From: a virus
IMG/VR virus record: IMGVR_UViG_3300028400_000022
Span: 1 to 33,413 of that record
Length of the DNA: 33,413 nt
Reading direction: 5' to 3' (one strand)
Below the pieces are notes generated by a model. That model did not search any database. It was not told the origin of the DNA and saw nothing but the letters and a program-made list of their open reading frames with translations. Shown in pieces: positions 8,621 through 27,800 of the stretch (the stretch's first letter is position 1; every line of letters begins with the position of its first letter). A program made the position numbers and the translations under genes.

Positions 8621-9000
8621 GTCATTGGGCAGAGCAATACATCGGGATCCCCTGGCAGGCCGGAGGCCGCGGGCCGGATGCCTATGACTGCTGGGGGCTG
8701 CTGCTGCATGTCATGCGCCGACATTACGGGCGCAGCATCCAGGATTGCAATGTTTCCGAAATCGAGGCCGGAGAGCTGCGCCGCCTGGCCGGCGAATGGC
8801 GTCCGGTCGATGCTCCGCGCGATGGCGACGGAGTCAAGATGGGGTCTGCCGAGCGGCTGCACGTCGGCGTCTATGTCAACCAGAACGGCGGGGCCGTGCT
8901 GCATTGCGCAGAACGGTATGGCGTCATCCTGACGCAAGTTTCGGCCTTGCGGTCGATGGGCTTCTCGCCTGTCACTTATTACCGTTGGCAAGGGCTATGA
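8617..9000 (+). CDS. NlpC/P60-family tail tip cysteine peptidase
   Basis: From the ATG at 8617 the protein has 127 residues. The catalytic motif DAYDCWGLLLHVMRRHYG places the nucleophile at C25, and LHVGVYV gives the histidine at H82; both are diagnostic for NlpC/P60 domains. In siphophages (lambda K) this protein assembles at the tail tip and may cut peptidoglycan peptides during entry. The start at 8617 is preferred over 8611 because GGCGGG lies at the right distance only from 8617, and 8617 forms an ATGA with the preceding stop. It is coupled by another ATGA to the tip attachment gene. Confidence 0.9.
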   Translation: MSHWAEQYIGIPWQAGGRGPDAYDCWGLLLHVMRRHYGRSIQDCNVSEIEAGELRRLAGEWRPVDAPRDGDGVKMGSAERLHVGVYVNQNGGAVLHCAERYGVILTQVSALRSMGFSPVTYYRWQGL

Positions 9001-12000
9001 CCGCAAACGTCATCCAGATTGCCGATCCGTTCCGGCCCACGCTTGGCCGGATCATCAATCCGGTGGACGAGCCGATGACCGTCCGCGAATGGATGGTGGA
9101 CAACGATTTCGACCCGGATTGCGCGCCGACCATTTGCTTGTTCAATGGCGATCCCCTGCTGCGCGCCGAATGGGAGACGACCACAATCCAGGACGACGAC
9201 GTCGTCCAGCTCATCCGCCTGCCACAAGGCGGCGGGCAGGGCTCGAACCCGATGCGCGTGGTTCTGATGGTCGCGGTGATGGTTGCGGCCTACTATACCG
9301 GAGGCGCGGCGGCTGCAGCCTATGGATCGGCGGCAGGATATGCTGCCCAGGCCGCCGTCATCATCGTCGGCACCATGATGGTCAATGCGATGATCCCGCC
9401 GCCGTCCGCAAAGCCGCAGGAGGACTCGAGCACCTTCAATGCCAGCCCGACCTATTCGCTGATCGCCAGGGCCAACCGCAACCGGATCAATTCGCCCATC
9501 CCGGTACTCTATGGCCGGCATGTCATTTACCCTGACTATGCCGCCCAGCCGTACACGGAATACAACAACAACGATCAATACCTGTTCGCGCTGTTCTGCC
9601 TCGGCCATGGCGAATATGATGTCGAAGCTATCCGCATCGACGACACCGCAGCCGCCGACAAGAGCGGCGGATCGCTGGCGCCGACTGGCAATTTCGAGGG
9701 TTTCGAGTATGAGCTGATCGACGATGGCAGCGCCCCGAGTCTATTCCCGAGCATTGTCAACAACTCAATCGAGGTGACCGGACAGGAGCTGGATTATCAG
9801 CCTGGTGGGTCGTCGGTTATCATCGGACCATTCGTCGCCAGTCCGGCAGGTTCGACTGTCAACTACATCGGCGTGGATATCGTCCTGCCGCGCGGCCTCG
9901 GCTATTACAACGACGATGGCACGAAGTCATCGCGCAGCCTGACGGTTCTTTTCGAGGCGCGGCAAATCGACGATGCCGGCGCGCCGATTGGATCGTTCTT
10001 CGCGCTCGGCACGGAGACCATCACCGCCTCATCCTTTTCGCCGATCCGCCGATCCTTCCGGTATGCCGTGACCAGCGCGCGCTATGAGGTCCGCGCCAGC
10101 CGCACGACGGTCAAGGAATCATCGGATCGCTATGCCGGATCTGTCTTCTGGACCGCCATGCGCGGCTACCAGCCTGAGACCAAGATCTACCCAGGCAAAA
10201 CCATCATGGCTGTGCGGATCAAGGCCTCCAATCAGCTCAACGGCGATGCCTCGCGGCGCTTTAACGTCATCATGACCCGCAAGCTGAAGTCCTGGACCAG
10301 CGGCGCCGGCTGGTCGAGCCTGGCGCAGCCGACGCGCTCCCCGGCCTGGGCGCTGGCGGACATGCTCAAGGCCAGCTATGGTGGCGAGCTGACCGATTCC
10401 TTCATCGACCTGGCCACGCTCGAGTCCCTGGATGCCACTTGGAGCAGCCGCGGCGACTATTTCGATGGGGTGTTCGACTCCGAGACCGGCCTGTGGGATG
10501 CCGTCACGCAGGTGGCCAGGGTCGGGCGGGCCATGCCCATACTGCAGGCCGGGATCGTGTCTTTCGTCCGGGATGCGGCCCAGTCTGCCGTGACCGCCGT
10601 CTATACCCTGCGCAATATCGTGCGCGGGACATTTTCGCTGCAATACTTGATGCCGTCGGTGGACAATGCCGACTCGGTTGTCGTGACCTACGTCGATGAG
10701 ACGACATGGCGACCGGCCGATGTGACAGCGGCCCTGCCGTCGTCGTCTGCCGCCAAACCGGCCAAGGTGCGCCTGTTCGGCGTCACCAGCCGCGATCAGG
10801 CCTGGCGCGAAGGCATGTACATGGCCGCATCGAACTACTACCGGCGCCGGCTGTGCAAGTTCCGCACGGAGCTGGAAGGGTACATCCCGACGCCAGGCGA
10901 TCTGATCCTGATCTCGCACGACATGCCGGCCTGGGGGCAGTCTGGCGAGATCGTCAGCCACAGCTACGATGCCGGCGCCGATGTAACCACGTTGGTCACC
11001 AACGAGCCGCTGACCTACACCACCGGCCAGAACCACTTTATCGCCCTGCGCCGGCGTGACGGCTCGATGTCCGGCCCGTGGCAGGTCACCCAGGGCGCGG
11101 ACGCCTATACCGTGACCATCGCCGGCGCGCTGGACTTCACGCCATACACCGGCAGCTCGGAGGAGCGCACCCATTACGCCTTCGGCTATGGGGAAACCTA
11201 CGGCCTCAAAGCCAAGGTGATCGAGGTCCGCCCGCGCGGAGCCACGCAGGTCGAGATCACGGCGGTCGGCGAGGCCGATGCCGTTCACACGGCCGAGAAC
11301 GGCCAGACCCCGGCCCCGCCGTCGCCGTCACAGCTACCCGGCCAGGTTACGGCGCCAGTCGTCACCGGGCTGGATGTCTCCCAGACCGGCACCCGCCGGC
11401 GGCCGGTGCTCATCGTGTCCTGGGACGCGAGCCCGTATGCCGATCACTACTATGTCGAGTTTTCCAACGATGGCGTCAACTGGGACCGGGTCGGCGAGCC
11501 CAGCGCGGCCCCGTTCCGGTTCTACGCCGATCCGGGGACGGGGTATGTCCGGGTGGCAGCAGTGGGCATCGTGCGCGGGCCGTGGGCGCAGTGGACCGGG
11601 CAGGTCGCCGGCGACACGACGCCGCCGAACGATGTGGTCAATTTCAACTGGTCGATCTGGCAGTACAACATCAACCTCACCTGGGACGCGGTCACGTCGA
11701 TTTCGAGGAATACGAGATCCGCATGGGTGGCACGTCCTGGGCGGATGCGGCCTTCCTGGCGACTACCAAGGCGACCAACTGGACCTATCAGAACCTGCCG
11801 GCCGGCTCGACGACATTTCGGATCAAGGCAATCGACGAGAACGGCAACGAGTCAGTCAACGAAGCGACCACCGTTGCCACCATCGCCGCCCCGTCCGCCC
11901 CGTCCGTCGTCGCCGAGGTCATCGATAATAACGTCCTGCTGCGGTGGACCGAATCCAACGGCACGCTGCCCATCGACTTCTACGAGATCCGCCGCGGGGC

Positions 12001-12173
12001 GAGCTGGGATACCGCCGAGGTCGTCGGCACCAAGGCTGGGCTGTTTACGGTCCTGTTCGAGACGCAGTCGGCATCCTATACCTATTGGGTGGCTGCTATC
12101 GACCGCGCCGGCAACTACGGTCAGCCGGCCAGCGTCACCACCACCGTCAACCAGCCGTCCGATTATGTCCTGA
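8997..12173 (+). CDS. Tip attachment protein J-like, N-terminal part (frame changes at about 11690-11699)
   Basis: This frame encodes the start of a central tail-tip protein that would recognise the host receptor. Residues 1-85 match the usual start of J-like proteins (NVIQIADPFRPTLGRI); residues about 85-135 are a Gly/Ala-rich hydrophobic segment; then come the tail-tip core (PVLYGRHVIYPDYAAQPYTEY) and the first fibronectin-type-III-like domain. Meaningful protein ends at about residue 900 (NINLTWDAVT). After that the frame turns into Arg/Pro-rich nonsense until the stop at 12171-12173, while the true continuation, starting VDFEEYEIRMGG, is in the -1 frame. If read through with a shift, the whole protein would be about 1448 residues. 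Either this copy is disrupted, the assembly has an error, or the shift is real. Confidence 0.82.
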   Translation: MTANVIQIADPFRPTLGRIINPVDEPMTVREWMVDNDFDPDCAPTICLFNGDPLLRAEWETTTIQDDDVVQLIRLPQGGGQGSNPMRVVLMVAVMVAAYYTGGAAAAAYGSAAGYAAQAAVIIVGTMMVNAMIPPPSAKPQEDSSTFNASPTYSLIARANRNRINSPIPVLYGRHVIYPDYAAQPYTEYNNNDQYLFALFCLGHGEYDVEAIRIDDTAAADKSGGSLAPTGNFEGFEYELIDDGSAPSLFPSIVNNSIEVTGQELDYQPGGSSVIIGPFVASPAGSTVNYIGVDIVLPRGLGYYNDDGTKSSRSLTVLFEARQIDDAGAPIGSFFALGTETITASSFSPIRRSFRYAVTSARYEVRASRTTVKESSDRYAGSVFWTAMRGYQPETKIYPGKTIMAVRIKASNQLNGDASRRFNVIMTRKLKSWTSGAGWSSLAQPTRSPAWALADMLKASYGGELTDSFIDLATLESLDATWSSRGDYFDGVFDSETGLWDAVTQVARVGRAMPILQAGIVSFVRDAAQSAVTAVYTLRNIVRGTFSLQYLMPSVDNADSVVVTYVDETTWRPADVTAALPSSSAAKPAKVRLFGVTSRDQAWREGMYMAASNYYRRRLCKFRTELEGYIPTPGDLILISHDMPAWGQSGEIVSHSYDAGADVTTLVTNEPLTYTTGQNHFIALRRRDGSMSGPWQVTQGADAYTVTIAGALDFTPYTGSSEERTHYAFGYGETYGLKAKVIEVRPRGATQVEITAVGEADAVHTAENGQTPAPPSPSQLPGQVTAPVVTGLDVSQTGTRRRPVLIVSWDASPYADHYYVEFSNDGVNWDRVGEPSAAPFRFYADPGTGYVRVAAVGIVRGPWAQWTGQVAGDTTPPNDVVNFNWSIWQYNINLTWDAVTSISRNTRSAWVARPGRMRPSWRLPRRPTGPIRTCRPARRHFGSRQSTRTATSQSTKRPPLPPSPPRPPRPSSPRSSIITSCCGGPNPTARCPSTSTRSAAGRAGIPPRSSAPRLGCLRSCSRRSRHPIPIGWLLSTAPATTVSRPASPPPSTSRPIMS

Positions 12174-13342
12174 ACGCGAACTATCTGGCCACCTGGAACG
12201 GGGCCATGCACAATGCGGCACCGCAGGATTTTCGGATGTTCTACAAGGCCTTCGAGACCGGCGAGTTCGCGGACTGGGCGGTGCCGGCCGGCGACGCGCT
12301 CACCCAGGACGCCGATACCGATATTGGCGCCTACGCAGGCCTTGTCGTATCCACGCAGACCGCGCCAGCCTCGAGTGGCACGACGGGTACGGTTCATGCC
12401 ACCATCGACAACAACCTGGCCATCGATACCTTTTCAGGGCAGACGGTTGTCGTCCGGGTTCGGGCCAAGACCCCAGCCACTGGTGCGGCGGCGGCCTTTG
12501 CGGTCGCCTATTCGACAAACGGCAGCGGCGATTCTGGCTGGCAGTCGTTCACCCCAACATCGCAATGGGAATGGTACGAGTTCGAGTACGCCGTGCCAGC
12601 CGGCACCACCGGGCCGGATTACATCGGGATCTGGGGGGACACCGCCGGCGGAGGAAATGGTGTGCTGATCAATGCCGTGCGGGTGCACGTCAAGGGGTCG
12701 GTTCCCGACAAGGTCGTCGCGCCGCTGGATCGGATCGAGACCTACGACGGGCATTTCTCGTCCCGGTCCTGGACGACGCCACAGGCGCAGATTGACGCCG
12801 GCTATCCGATCCTCATCGAGCCGACCAAGACGGCCGCCGTGCTCGAGGAGTTGATCGACTACGGGACGGTGCTCAACTCATCCCTGATTACGGTGGAATA
12901 TGACACCGCCAAGATCGGCAACAACACCATCACCACCACGATTTCGACCCGCCGGAATCCGACCGATGCCTGGTCCGACATTGTCGGCACGCGAGTTTTT
13001 GCCACGGATTTTCAATACGTTAAAGTCAAAATCGAGATCGCCGGCACAGACACCGAAACGATCACCTTCAATGATGTCAACATCCGTCTAGACTCGAAGC
13101 TGATCAACGACGCCGGCGCCGGCACAGCGAACGCCTCGGATACCTCGGGGACAACCGTCAATTTTAACGTGGCCTTCGTCGATGTCGAATCCATCACCGT
13201 GACCCCGGAGGGCACCACGCCGATCATCCCCGTGATAGACTTCGTGGACGCACCCTATCCGACGTCGTTTGCCGTCTATCTGTTCGACGAAACCGGCGCC
13301 AGGGTATCCGCCAATTTCCGATGGGCCGCCAGAGGGTACTAG
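11699..13342 (+). CDS. Tip attachment protein J-like, C-terminal part (-1 frame)
   Basis: This is the continuation of the J-like protein in the -1 frame; the first convincing residues are VDFEEYEIRM near 11696-11725. An ATG at 11723 is the first start codon after the change, but no ribosome site precedes it, so independent translation is doubtful. It carries two fibronectin-type-III-like modules (TFRIKAIDENGNESVNEAT and YWVAAIDRAGNYGQ), a jelly-roll-like segment, and the usual J-like C-terminal region ending NFRWAARGY. This part normally holds receptor-specific sequence. The frame is also open upstream to 11078, but that stretch is shadow sequence. Confidence 0.75.
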   Translation, partial: DFEEYEIRMGGTSWADAAFLATTKATNWTYQNLPAGSTTFRIKAIDENGNESVNEATTVATIAAPSAPSVVAEVIDNNVLLRWTESNGTLPIDFYEIRRGASWDTAEVVGTKAGLFTVLFETQSASYTYWVAAIDRAGNYGQPASVTTTVNQPSDYVLNANYLATWNGAMHNAAPQDFRMFYKAFETGEFADWAVPAGDALTQDADTDIGAYAGLVVSTQTAPASSGTTGTVHATIDNNLAIDTFSGQTVVVRVRAKTPATGAAAAFAVAYSTNGSGDSGWQSFTPTSQWEWYEFEYAVPAGTTGPDYIGIWGDTAGGGNGVLINAVRVHVKGSVPDKVVAPLDRIETYDGHFSSRSWTTPQAQIDAGYPILIEPTKTAAVLEELIDYGTVLNSSLITVEYDTAKIGNNTITTTISTRRNPTDAWSDIVGTRVFATDFQYVKVKIEIAGTDTETITFNDVNIRLDSKLINDAGAGTANASDTSGTTVNFNVAFVDVESITVTPEGTTPIIPVIDFVDAPYPTSFAVYLFDETGARVSANFRWAARGY

Positions 13343-25448: not shown

Positions 25449-25708
25449 CCAACGAAGAACGCCTCTGCCAGCGCTGGCGCAGCTTTGCACACCTGCATGA
25501 CGAGTATCGCCGCACCGACCAGCACACACGCGCCAGGGGCTGCGTCGATTCGGCTGTCGATTGGTTCGAAGGCTATGCCATGGCCATGCGCGATGCCGGT
25601 TATTTCGATGCCGCCAGCGATGCCCTGTTTCTGTCCTCGCTGGCCATCAACCGCGACGCTATTGTTTTGGACGAGATTTTCAACAATATCAGGACCGCCA
25701 ATGAGTAA
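25445..25708 (+). CDS. Hypothetical helical protein
   Basis: The 87-residue protein begins at 25445, with GGAGGAGG shortly upstream. It is helical with aromatic residues (CQRWRSFAHLHDEYRRTDQH and WFEGYAMAMRDAGYF), and ends acidic. No domain is recognised. Its stop overlaps the start of the RHH gene by eight bases. Confidence 0.65.
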   Translation: MTNEERLCQRWRSFAHLHDEYRRTDQHTRARGCVDSAVDWFEGYAMAMRDAGYFDAASDALFLSSLAINRDAIVLDEIFNNIRTANE

Positions 25709-25835
25709 CGAGACGATTCATTTCCGTATCCCGGCAAAGCTCAAGCGCCAGATCGAGAAGGCTGCAAGAGCAGAAGGCCAAACCGTCAGCGCCTGGATCC
25801 GAGCATTGTTGGCGAAGGCGGTGAAAAGAAAATGA
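25701..25835 (+). CDS. Ribbon-helix-helix regulator (Arc/CopG type)
   Basis: The 44-residue protein is just one RHH domain: a strand (ETIHFRIPAKLKRQ), helix A (QIEKAARAEG) and helix B (TVSAWIRALLAKAVKRK). Such proteins dimerise and bind palindromic operators; the inverted repeat at 25127-25149, about 550 bases upstream in the same unit, is a natural candidate target. Autorepression is inference. The gene is followed by the structured region without normal genes. Confidence 0.78.
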   Translation: MSNETIHFRIPAKLKRQIEKAARAEGQTVSAWIRALLAKAVKRK

Positions 25836-25879
25836 CAGAGTTCCAAGACCCGCCGCCAGGGTGGCTCCTGGCGGGATAG
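25832..25879 (+). CDS. 15-residue ORF coupled to RHH gene
   Basis: ATG at 25832 forms ATGA with the RHH stop; the peptide is MTEFQDPPPGWLLAG. Its last codons cover the perfect hairpin 25853-25874. It may be the front end of a gene cut by whatever brought the structured region, or a leader peptide that couples translation to folding of that hairpin. Confidence 0.35.
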   Translation: MTEFQDPPPGWLLAG

Positions 25880-26019
25880 TGAACAAGTCCCACGCAGCCG
25901 TGCCGGATCGGGTCTTTCCGGCTGGGATGGAGAAGGCGGTTAGGGTGTCGCGGTTAGCCACCGGACGCATGTGTGAGTCAGCCATGCACGGGTGCCCGCC
26001 CACGATTTCAATGGCGTGA
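25879..26019 (+). CDS. 46-residue GTG-start ORF in structured region
   Basis: GTG at 25879 overlaps the TAG of the 15-residue ORF by one base. The product reads MNKSHAAVPDRVFPAGMEKA and continues with RVSRLATGRMCESAMHGC. It is basic, with no membrane span. Its stop lies in a GTGA overlap with the next tiny ORF. Overlaps on both sides speak for translation, while the surrounding stems speak for RNA function; both may hold. Confidence 0.38.
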   Translation: MNKSHAAVPDRVFPAGMEKAVRVSRLATGRMCESAMHGCPPTISMA

Positions 26020-26108
26020 AGCTGGCTGCGGCGTGGAAAATCGCAGACACGCAGTGGACACAACTCTACCGCCCGGCTGCGGGGATGTGTGACGGCGACG
26101 CAGCTTGA
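26016..26108 (+). CDS. 30-residue GTG-start ORF in structured region
   Basis: GTG at 26016 sits in a GTGA with the previous stop. The peptide starts MKLAAAWKIADTQWTQLYRP and has an acidic end. It shows no known motif. The third member of a chain of stop/start-coupled ORFs in this region; it is weak evidence alone. Confidence 0.33.
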   Translation: MKLAAAWKIADTQWTQLYRPAAGMCDGDAA

Positions 26109-26202
26109 CCTGCCAAGCAGGTGACTAAAGCCGAACCGAGTGGGTGCCGGAATTGAACGACCGGCCAGCCAGTGGATCGCCACCCTATTCTGGAGAGCAG
26201 AT

Positions 26203-26406
26203 ATGATGCACAAGCTATGTCCATTTTGCGGCGAATGCGATAATTTCGCTTTTGTGATTGATATTGGGCAAGGTCACAAATACGGCGCTGTTGAATGCCG
26301 GTGTTGTGGAGCAAAAGGACCGGAAGTGCGCACGAACTGCCGTAACGGAGCCAAGGAAGAATGGCACAAAGACGCGCTCGATGCGTGGAATGACAGAGCA
26401 GGATAG
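26203..26406 (+). CDS. Lar-family restriction alleviation protein
   Basis: The 67-residue protein (or 66 from the second ATG at 26206) follows GGAGAG. It has the Lar pattern: LCPFCGE with C6 and C9, VECRCCGAKGPEV with C32 and C34/C35, and ends DALDAWNDRA, the typical A(I/L)xAWNxR finish. Lar of the Rac prophage modulates type I restriction so that incoming DNA is modified rather than cut. The zinc-ribbon pattern is seen; the anti-restriction effect is inferred from the family. Confidence 0.85.
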   Translation: MMHKLCPFCGECDNFAFVIDIGQGHKYGAVECRCCGAKGPEVRTNCRNGAKEEWHKDALDAWNDRAG

Positions 26407-26411
26407 CAGAC

Positions 26412-26606
26412 ATGAAACCAGAAGAAGCAAAACAGAAATGGTGCCCGTTCGTGCTGTTTGAAGATGGTGAAGGCAAAGCGCACAACAGAAGTTGGTTTCA
26501 TCCGATTGAAGCAGAGCAATTCTGTTGTATCGCCGAGCGGTGCATGATGTGGCGCACACGATACGAGGATGGCGAGGAACACGGATATTGCGGGCTGGCA
26601 AGATAA
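26412..26606 (+). CDS. Small Cys-rich phage protein
   Basis: The 64-residue product begins MKPEEAKQKWCPFVLFEDG and has CCIAERCMMWR and GYCGLAR, so five cysteines that could bind a metal. Short proteins with KxCPF...C...CMxWR...GYCG are widespread in phages of proteobacteria, with unknown function. It lies six bases after the Lar-like gene, in the same unit. Confidence 0.72.
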   Translation: MKPEEAKQKWCPFVLFEDGEGKAHNRSWFHPIEAEQFCCIAERCMMWRTRYEDGEEHGYCGLAR

Positions 26607-26622
26607 ACAAGAGGACAGAAAA

Positions 26623-27252
26623 ATGAATCCAAAACAGGTCATGCAATTCTGCGCGCCAGAAGATGACCCGCGCGATTATCTGCATCATCCGTTTAAGCAA
26701 AACGGCATGGTTTATGCGACTAATGGGGCGATGCTGATTGAGCTGTTTCCGAAGCACTATAACGATATTGTGTGCGAGCAAGAAAAACCGGATTGCTCTT
26801 TTGTCGATGGCGTATTCGATGAAATCCGTGATGGAGATTATTTGCCAATACCGGAAATTGCCAAACCGGCAACAAGGGAGTGCACGTTTTGCGGAGGAAC
26901 AGGAAAAAGCGGGGTTTGCTCGGAATGTGGCGGACTTGGTTATATCGTCTGCGATCTCGGGCACGAGCATGATTGCGAGAAATGCGGCGGCACCGGGTCA
27001 ATAAAAGGAGAGGATCAAGATTGCATTGAATGCAGCGGTAGCGGCGAGGTTTTCGATAATCCGGCGGTTCTTTTAACCGCGCATGATGGCAGCCTGATTC
27101 ATGTCGACTGGCGGCTTCTGCAGAAATTCAAAGCATTGCCTGGCGTGAAGTATGCAATCGGTCGATTTGCGAGATCGGAATTGCAAGAATCCAATGTCGC
27201 CGCCTTCGTTTTTGACAAAGGGCGCGGCCTATTGATGCCGATGTATCCATGA
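26623..27252 (+). CDS. Protein with DnaJ-type zinc-finger insert
   Basis: From the ATG at 26623 the product has 209 residues. Residues about 87-141 hold four CxxCxGxG-type repeats: CTFCGGTG (87-94), CSECGGLG (99-106), CEKCGGTG (118-125) and CIECSGSG (134-141), the Cys-rich zinc domain of DnaJ. The J domain itself is absent. Flanking parts (NGMVYATNGAMLIELFPK before and VDWRLLQKFKALPGVKYAIG after) resemble beta-clamp-like phage proteins of unknown function, so the zinc domain appears inserted. It may bind unfolded or partner proteins, or DNA; this cannot be settled here. Confidence 0.75.
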   Translation: MNPKQVMQFCAPEDDPRDYLHHPFKQNGMVYATNGAMLIELFPKHYNDIVCEQEKPDCSFVDGVFDEIRDGDYLPIPEIAKPATRECTFCGGTGKSGVCSECGGLGYIVCDLGHEHDCEKCGGTGSIKGEDQDCIECSGSGEVFDNPAVLLTAHDGSLIHVDWRLLQKFKALPGVKYAIGRFARSELQESNVAAFVFDKGRGLLMPMYP

Positions 27253-27437
27253 GGCGCGGATATCCATACCGATTCATGATGATGTGGCCGCGCCTTTCTG
27301 TCAGGCGGCAGCGTCGGCGAATGCGGCGCTTCAGAACGATGCGATATCCGATTTGCAGGAAAACGAAGATGCCGGCATGTGGCGAACGATTCGCGCTCAA
27401 GCTGGCATACCTTTCTCAACGTGGAAGGTGGAAATGA
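27249..27437 (+). CDS. Small Arg-rich ORF
   Basis: The 62-residue product starts in an ATGA overlap with the zinc-finger gene and ends in an ATGA with the next ORF. It is extremely basic (RLSVRRQRRRMRRFRTMRYP), so it could bind nucleic acid; such composition also arises from unselected GC-rich DNA. The overlaps on both ends favour translation. Confidence 0.45.
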   Translation: MRRGYPYRFMMMWPRLSVRRQRRRMRRFRTMRYPICRKTKMPACGERFALKLAYLSQRGRWK

Positions 27438-27601
27438 TGCGCAAATGGACGAAAATTCTGCCATTTTTCTTCATCGAATGGTATGCCAGGCGCAACTGCC
27501 AGACCATGAGAACGCCGGTAAACAACGACATGGTAAATCCATATCCTGGCGTGTTTATCTGTTTTCCGGTCACAAAAAAAGGAAAGCCGCGAGAGAGGTG
27601 A
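27434..27601 (+). CDS. 55-residue hypothetical protein
   Basis: ATG at 27434 follows GGAAGGTGG and overlaps the previous stop. The product has a hydrophobic-aromatic start (KWTKILPFFFIEWYARR) and a basic end (FPVTKKGKPRER). No family is recognised. Confidence 0.52.
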   Translation: MMRKWTKILPFFFIEWYARRNCQTMRTPVNNDMVNPYPGVFICFPVTKKGKPRER

Positions 27602-27605
27602 TGAT

Positions 27606-27740
27606 ATGGGGTTCATGCTTGGAAAGATCGGCGGACGGTATATAAAAATCGACCGCCTCCTGAGAAAAGCAAGGCTTCGGAAATGCTTAAATCTGCGCCG
27701 CTGGAGATTGATGCCGCGTGAGTTTCGCAATGCCGATTGA
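27606..27740 (+). CDS. 44-residue basic protein
   Basis: ATG at 27606 lies five bases after the previous stop with GAGAGAGGTGAT at ribosome-site distance. The peptide is MGFMLGKIGGRYIKIDRLLR followed by a further Arg/Leu-rich helix, so it is strongly basic and possibly amphipathic. A shorter ORF at 27601 in another frame has no better site. Moderate confidence. Confidence 0.5.
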   Translation: MGFMLGKIGGRYIKIDRLLRKARLRKCLNLRRWRLMPREFRNAD

Positions 27741-27800
27741 TGCTGTAGGCGAGCAACCAACCGCGCCGGGCGGAACCCGGTAAACCAACGGAGAGAGACC

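Follow-up and report, generated by a model that had tools for sequence, protein, structure and literature searches.

The gap between a ribbon-helix-helix gene and a Lar-like gene

The DNA analysed here, referred to in its full length as the window, comprises the 33,413 bases of a virus record. It contains a gap at positions 25836-26202 that is flanked by genes encoding a ribbon-helix-helix protein (stop at 25835) and a Lar-like restriction-alleviation zinc protein (start at 26203), all on the plus strand. The following features were assigned to the gap and its borders:

Stop at 25835, plus strand: ribbon-helix-helix protein of 44 amino acids (PF01402, 28.3 bits)
25832..26108, plus strand: tiny ORFs of 15, 46 and 30 codons, present as a chain of chance-like length
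25836..26011, plus strand: non-coding, GC-rich left half of the reported region, no homologue found
25853-25874, plus strand: hairpin CCGCCAGG-GTGGCT-CCTGGCGG in the left half
26021..26173, plus strand: predicted RNA element of 153 nt, from P1 to P1, present in six copies in all (models R1, R2 and R3; alignments A2-A4)
26203..26406, plus strand: Lar-like protein of 67 amino acids (phrog_599)

The Lar-like protein matched PF14354 at 30.8 bits (cut-off 28.6) when the 88-amino-acid reading of the same frame was used, and its gene starts 29 nt behind the closing stem P1 of the RNA element, with GGAG upstream.

A preliminary description of this region had noted that it holds no ordinary gene, which was confirmed for the gap between 25835 and 26203, and that it carries three ORFs coupled by ATGA, TAGTG and GTGA overlaps. 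The ORFs exist with these junctions, but the length of the chain is expected by chance, as 38.7% of 3000 dinucleotide shuffles contained a chain with start/stop coupling that was at least as long as that of the three ORFs (277 nt). The suggestion that the first ORF represents the front of a broken gene gained no support from similarity searches or from Pfam and PHROGs, and the three ORFs together yielded no convincing Pfam or PHROGs family, with a single PHROGs match of 14 residues at an E-value of 0.22. In the codon model ORF3 outscored each of 153 null ORFs of comparable length, ORF1 outscored 97% and ORF2 94% of the respective null ORFs, and ORF2 displayed some three-base periodicity (reached by 1.5% of shuffles). 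The coding path on the plus strand of the gap was ordinary, its score being reached by 25.5% of 200 shuffles; for the minus strand, just 2% of 200 shuffles scored as high as the path. However, a 174-codon ORF on that strand scored like null ORFs (75% of 28 were as high) and had no match in Pfam or PHROGs.

With respect to the perfect stems that had been drawn in the region, short stems were moderately enriched, with 19 stems of at least 5 bp versus 9.2 expected (0.5% of 200 shuffles reach this number) and seven of at least 6 bp versus 2.2 expected (1.5% of 200 shuffles), but no excess was detected at 7 bp or more and 8 bp or more (53% and 16.5% of shuffles). This enrichment was reached by eight (at least 5 bp) and seven (at least 6 bp) of 364 genome windows, some of which overlap the region itself, and places the region within roughly the top 2% for its genome. 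The folding energy of the region equalled that of shuffled sequence (z = -0.01; 365 nt, 100 shuffles), so that the region folds no better than shuffles.

Some observations concern the wider window. The tail-tip (GpJ-like) protein is divided between an ORF at 8745-12173 and one at 11078-13342, which overlap; this may reflect an assembly indel or a frameshift. The interval 26203-27252 shows a lower G+C content (about 0.49-0.52 versus about 0.55-0.62 around it) and is located between the gene-poor gaps 25836-26202 and 27253-27800. The second of these gaps (about 550 bases) has no convincing coding signal on the plus strand (44.5% of shuffles) and no Rfam match at the gathering score. Positions 26623-27252 encode a DnaJ-like CxxCxGxG zinc protein with a weak PF00684 match, whose relatives in the two named collections searched were confined to Microcystis phage MACPNOA1 and three plasmids.

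Six copies of a structured element

The most codon-like of the tiny ORFs, ORF3, was converted into a degenerate DNA pattern allowing synonymous codons, and a scan of viral contigs with this pattern yielded 25 contigs. Three of them match the window far past the pattern, with 43 identical bases in L126, 33 bases at 97% identity in L134 and 29 bases at 97% in L124, and L126 contains a second collinear stretch matching the window. All four sequences share an exact 22-nt core. Their reading frames disagree further on; common to them are an 8-bp stem that encloses the whole, the 22-nt hairpin in identical form, a middle part that varies and a last hairpin adjoining the stem.

A 36-nt core query against the named-phage collection (E-value of at most 10) returned six records, of which only that of the Pseudomonas phage PotUPM1, which infects P. 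otitidis NK1, was accepted. Its core match had an E-value of 0.4 with no annotated feature beneath it, and the model R1 matched PotUPM1 with 25.8 bits (E-value 0.0096). In this copy, at 33922-34124, the sequence of P1 is fully different (GUGAUCUG/CAGAUCAC), while its 8 bp and the layout are the same as in the other copies; neither P1 nor the last hairpin had been used in the BLAST search that found the core. The model R2, built from the window, L124, L126, L134 and PotUPM1, then blindly detected one more copy, the sixth, with 50.6 bits and an E-value of 1e-8. It is located in G011, the record that holds the terminase relative L036. This copy is located outside the L036 stretch used in the comparison of terminase relatives; it contains a loop pair as in PotUPM1 and a 7-bp outward extension of P1. 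Two of the eight P1 pairs fail in G011 and one fails in L126. The deduced architecture in the window is as follows:

26012..26016 with 26178-26182, plus strand: outer stem P0, TGGCG with CGCCA, common to L126 only
26021..26028, plus strand: 5' strand of P1, GCTGGCTG, pairing with 26166-26173
26031..26052, plus strand: hairpin P2, GCGTG-GAAAATCGCAGA-CACGC, stem 26031-26035 with 26048-26052, loop 26036-26047
26053..26145, plus strand: variable middle domain, 93 nt here and 69-148 nt depending on the copy, with predicted hairpins in each copy
26146..26165, plus strand: last hairpin, GCCGG-AATTGAACGA-CCGGC, abutting P1
26166..26173, plus strand: 3' strand of P1, CAGCCAGT

The length of the element over the six copies is 127-203 nt. 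In the window all eight pairs of P1 can form, one of them as G-U. The nearly invariant P2 reads GCGUG-GAAA(AUC)GCAGA-CACGC in RNA letters; the version of the window is identical in L124, L126 and L134, and the loop is three bases shorter (GAAAGCAGA) in PotUPM1 and G011. The middle domain, represented in the window for example by the hairpin ACCTGC-CAA-GCAGGT (26108-26122), aligns poorly among the copies. The loop of the last hairpin ends with GCGA in three copies, ACGA in the window and GCGC in two. Outside P1, the window and L126 possess the 5-bp outward pairing P0 beyond a 4x4 internal loop. The left half of the reported region (25836-26011) has nothing detectable in common with the sequence upstream of the other copies, apart from the last bases before P1 and the outer stem, which are common to the window and L126 only.

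The structure was evaluated with a six-row MAFFT alignment that was built without structure and 22 named pairs, comprising 18 nested pairs and four proposed loop-loop pairs. The named pairs hold in 96.1% of 128 cells versus 25.8-34.5% when slid, and two-sided changes occur at eight of the 22 pairs in 15 cells. The family consists of only six sequences, and the count leans somewhat because two rows were located via the core or a model. None of 500 shuffles reached the percentage paired, either two-sided count or the covariation score; the measure of further pair types was reached by 37 of 500. Two-sided changes affect six of the eight P1 pairs, where G-U wobble is present in four cells, and two of the five pairs of the last hairpin. 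The pairs of P2 do not vary in any copy, and the P2 stem is therefore without covariation support. The first four copies alone gave 97.2% for the 18 nested pairs versus 23.2-36.1% when slid. The G+C content of the copies is 0.58-0.63 while that of their loci spans 0.33-0.66.

Accordingly, homologues with compensatory changes exist for 26021-26173, and in all six copies P1 is free in sequence with its pairing kept, P2 hardly varies and the last hairpin adjoins P1. These comparisons indicate with high confidence that the family is structured, and 26021-26173 very probably represents a member of a separate family of phage RNAs that recurs in at least five other phages besides the window. The earlier view of a phage RNA that matches no family is thus supported for 26021-26173, with its compensatory changes and no Rfam 15 match; for the left half no homologue was found.

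Folding energies of the element were ordinary, with z-values of -0.01 for L126, -0.66 for L134, -1.71 for L124 and -0.95 for the window. The lowest-energy fold of L126 is without the structure (-43.2 versus -41.1 kcal/mol when constrained), and those of the window copy and PotUPM1 differ in part from the proposed structure; G011 was left out of this comparison, as its constrained fold came out below its own minimum, which was taken as an artefact of forcing two mispairs. A long-range helix proposed between 25890-25899 and 26024-26036 is not supported since it clashes with the comparatively supported pairs 26021-26028/26166-26173 and 26031-26035/26048-26052. The initial arguments from the ORF chain and folding were therefore weak, and it was the comparison with homologues that rescued the case, which shows that structured RNAs can be missed by single-sequence folding energy.

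Non-members scored at most 19.2 bits with the models. The match in L140 (17.4-17.7 bits) was rejected, being located inside a 272-codon ORF with no last hairpin and one P1 mispair, as was that in HJTV-1 (17.9-19.2 bits), which lies inside an annotated gene. Matches in L021, L041, L071 (three rows) and L090 and at a second place in L124 (12.6-16.2 bits) were not accepted. Just upstream of the G011 copy, a 5-bp hairpin with a P2-like layout, GCCTG-GGAAGA-CAGGC, was noticed by eye (L153, 1478-1493).

Searches for known families and further relatives

The covariance models of Rfam 15 gave no match in the whole window, none in 25700-26420 at an E-value of at most 10 and none on the element in the other five copies at an E-value of at most 5, so that no Rfam 15 family reaches its gathering score on any of the six copies. 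A skipping-rope RNA (RF02924) detected in L124 served as a positive control and showed that the Rfam search was working. It is located at 5968-5854 on the minus strand (52 bits, gathering score 36.7), 38 nt behind the element, and this phage contig hence carries two structured RNAs side by side. ARAGORN predicted no tRNA or tmRNA genes in the window and the five other loci. Thirty-two comparisons with E. coli rRNA and three tRNAs for mimicry or pairing yielded nothing convincing; the best, an 8-base word in common with 5S rRNA, is reached by 2% of shuffled motifs and was not counted. Full-text literature searches with stretches of the element sequence, in a coverage without most subscription papers, returned only words of 13-14 letters in other settings, and literature of the same coverage on structured phage RNAs contained no recognised description of the element and no PotUPM1. 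The family is undescribed in the sense that it is not in Rfam 15 and was not found in the literature searched.

Similarity searches without a structural model recovered little. By blastn the region had no match in phages, in plasmids or in E. coli genomes, exact 25-mers and 18-mers of the region were absent from the viral contigs, and three neighbour proteins and ORF2 had no relatives there. The terminase query detected 178 relatives in viral contigs, of which 80 were kept, and seven in genomes; the 80 stretches have head genes in common with the window, and the reported region was not shared according to BLAST. The region DNA gave only matches of 21-50 bases (E-values 0.01-0.08) in 17 genomes or records and one 36-base match (E-value 9.9e-4) among 398 Pseudomonadota genomes. 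The core with up to two mismatches was found in none of 249 Pseudomonadota genomes, and R2 with strict filters in none of 398, an empty result that is not proof of absence. The model searches covered 114 records in total (35 with R2 and 40 and 39 with R3). Among the 80 records holding terminase relatives, many of which are fragments, one (G011) contains the element, and the other accepted matches were copies already known.

The HEARO or omega RNA (RF02033), which is associated with an IscB-type gene directly downstream, was considered as a candidate and rejected, as its model had no match in the window record at an E-value of at most 10 and the downstream neighbour is the Lar-like gene. Moreover, a BLAST comparison of the region with 19 loci that carry RRXRR (IscB-type) matches gave no similarity of note, the longest match being 21 bases at 81%. 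RF02033 was detected in one of 299 Pseudomonadota genomes below the cut-off; PF14239 was detected in one of 249, also below the cut-off, and in seven of 247 genomes (six over the cut-off) in the phylum of G004, a Desulfobulbus MAG; the 19 loci derive from this last search.

Genomic context and possible mode of action

The context of the copies is mixed. A promoter-like site, TTGACT-17-TATAAT (11 of 12 positions), ends 20 bases before P1 in L126, sites of lower agreement are located at -258 in L124 (10 of 12) and at -192 in PotUPM1 (only 9 of 12), and no such site is present within 300 bases upstream in the window, L134 and G011. Five of the six copies are followed by the start codon of a same-direction ORF of at least 60 amino acids 19-52 nt after P1, four of them with a Shine-Dalgarno-like stretch ahead of the start, and the PotUPM1 copy lies close to cI, where a set of rightward genes begins. 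This combination of promoter-like sites and downstream genes is therefore compatible with both a stand-alone RNA and a leader. By eye, P1 of L124 seems to be followed by a hairpin that, together with a T run, resembles a terminator; it was not relied on because the terminator scan did not list it. At L150 (OQ633420, 34027-34359), the annotated gene WEV90047 starts inside the RNA, and an ATG 52 nt behind P1, preceded by GGAGG, looks like a better start.

We propose that the phage RNA, about 130-200 nt long, would close on itself via P1, an 8-bp stem (extended in some copies) whose pairing is kept and whose sequence is free. From the P1 junction the hardly changing P2, the variable middle domain and the last hairpin abutting P1 would project. 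The RNA would most likely be made during infection as a separate, structured small RNA, as suggested by the strong promoter-like site right ahead of the L126 copy. It would probably act in trans, with P2, held by P1 and the last hairpin, making the contact with a conserved partner in the host, for which RNA polymerase, a nuclease or the ribosome are candidates; the almost unchanged P2 across loci of 33%-66% G+C points to such a conserved partner. We regard the chances that the element both belongs to such an RNA family and acts in trans as evenly balanced. A wider version, in which P2 of a trans-acting class would bind conserved machinery across very different hosts and P2 and the last hairpin would, through their complementary loops, lock the fold or form multimers, is tentative and rather unlikely. 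These loops contain complementary UCGC/GCGA (4 bp) in three of the six copies, which is not significant singly (7.5-12.7% of shuffles), and merely 2-3 complementary bases in the other three.

A cis-acting leader, which would fold in the nascent transcript and act on its own polymerase by processive antitermination or control translation or termination of downstream genes, is quite conceivable, and trans action is favoured over it only modestly. The close downstream start codons with their Shine-Dalgarno-like stretches and the position of the PotUPM1 copy argue for a leader, as does the free closing-stem sequence with conserved loops, which is typical of leader elements. Yet in BLASTP the proteins encoded behind these five copies are unrelated, with a single match of 8 residues (E-value 0.59), and in compact phage genomes an intergenic RNA is close to the next start anyway. 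The leader that would offer a precedent also differs in form: according to PMC9378689, the phage-made put RNA of HK022 is about 70 nt long, consists of two stem-loops and is located in early transcripts, whereas the element has 127-203 nt, is closed by P1 and has more arms, at least two other helices including the nearly invariant P2 and the last hairpin. What the two would share is that a phage makes them as structured RNAs in early transcripts. The cis action of put RNA on RNA polymerase goes through the beta' zinc-binding domain; for the element, polymerase is one candidate partner.

The remaining explanations are far less probable. An origin, a packaging or recombination site or a protein-binding site, for which the inverted repeats would be required at the DNA level, would be in line with their fixed core and their presence in six different phage records, but it is improbable in view of the G-U wobbles in P1, the free P1 sequence, the promoter-like site beside the L126 copy, the lack of iteron-like repeats around the element in the window and the orientation, which is that of the following ORF in five copies and, according to the list of ORFs, also in L124. 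Small coupled proteins or a decayed gene could draw on the high codon-model scores of ORF1-ORF3 and the periodicity of ORF2 and are still less probable. Apart from the ordinary coding path, the chance-like ORF chain and the missing protein family, the seven codons of the TGG frame that are common to the six copies contain no synonymous change, this frame terminates at differing places, and PotUPM1 has a stop one codon ahead of the shared codons with no start codon in between. Amino acids are thus not kept via synonymous changes in 26021-26173, and for this conserved part small proteins can be regarded as ruled out; neither the micro-proteins nor the leader peptide considered earlier is supported there. 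Chance agreement of short words from very large collections, to which the E-value of the PotUPM1 core match by itself might point, is the least probable explanation, as in every copy P1 complementarity is accompanied by a second conserved hairpin in collinear position, G011 was matched blindly and the best non-members stayed at or below 19.2 bits.

Few structured phage RNAs have a known job, and put and pRNA taught lessons on transcription and packaging. The Phi29 pRNA is a phage RNA with paired ends and kissing loops, which is reminiscent of the loop complementarity in three copies; the element differs in that this complementarity is weak and in having no Rfam match. The skipping-rope RNA is likewise a small structured RNA but a separate element, as its model matches none of the six copies. 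As one copy resides in the named, cultured phage PotUPM1 with a named host strain, expression, knock-out and pull-down experiments are feasible.
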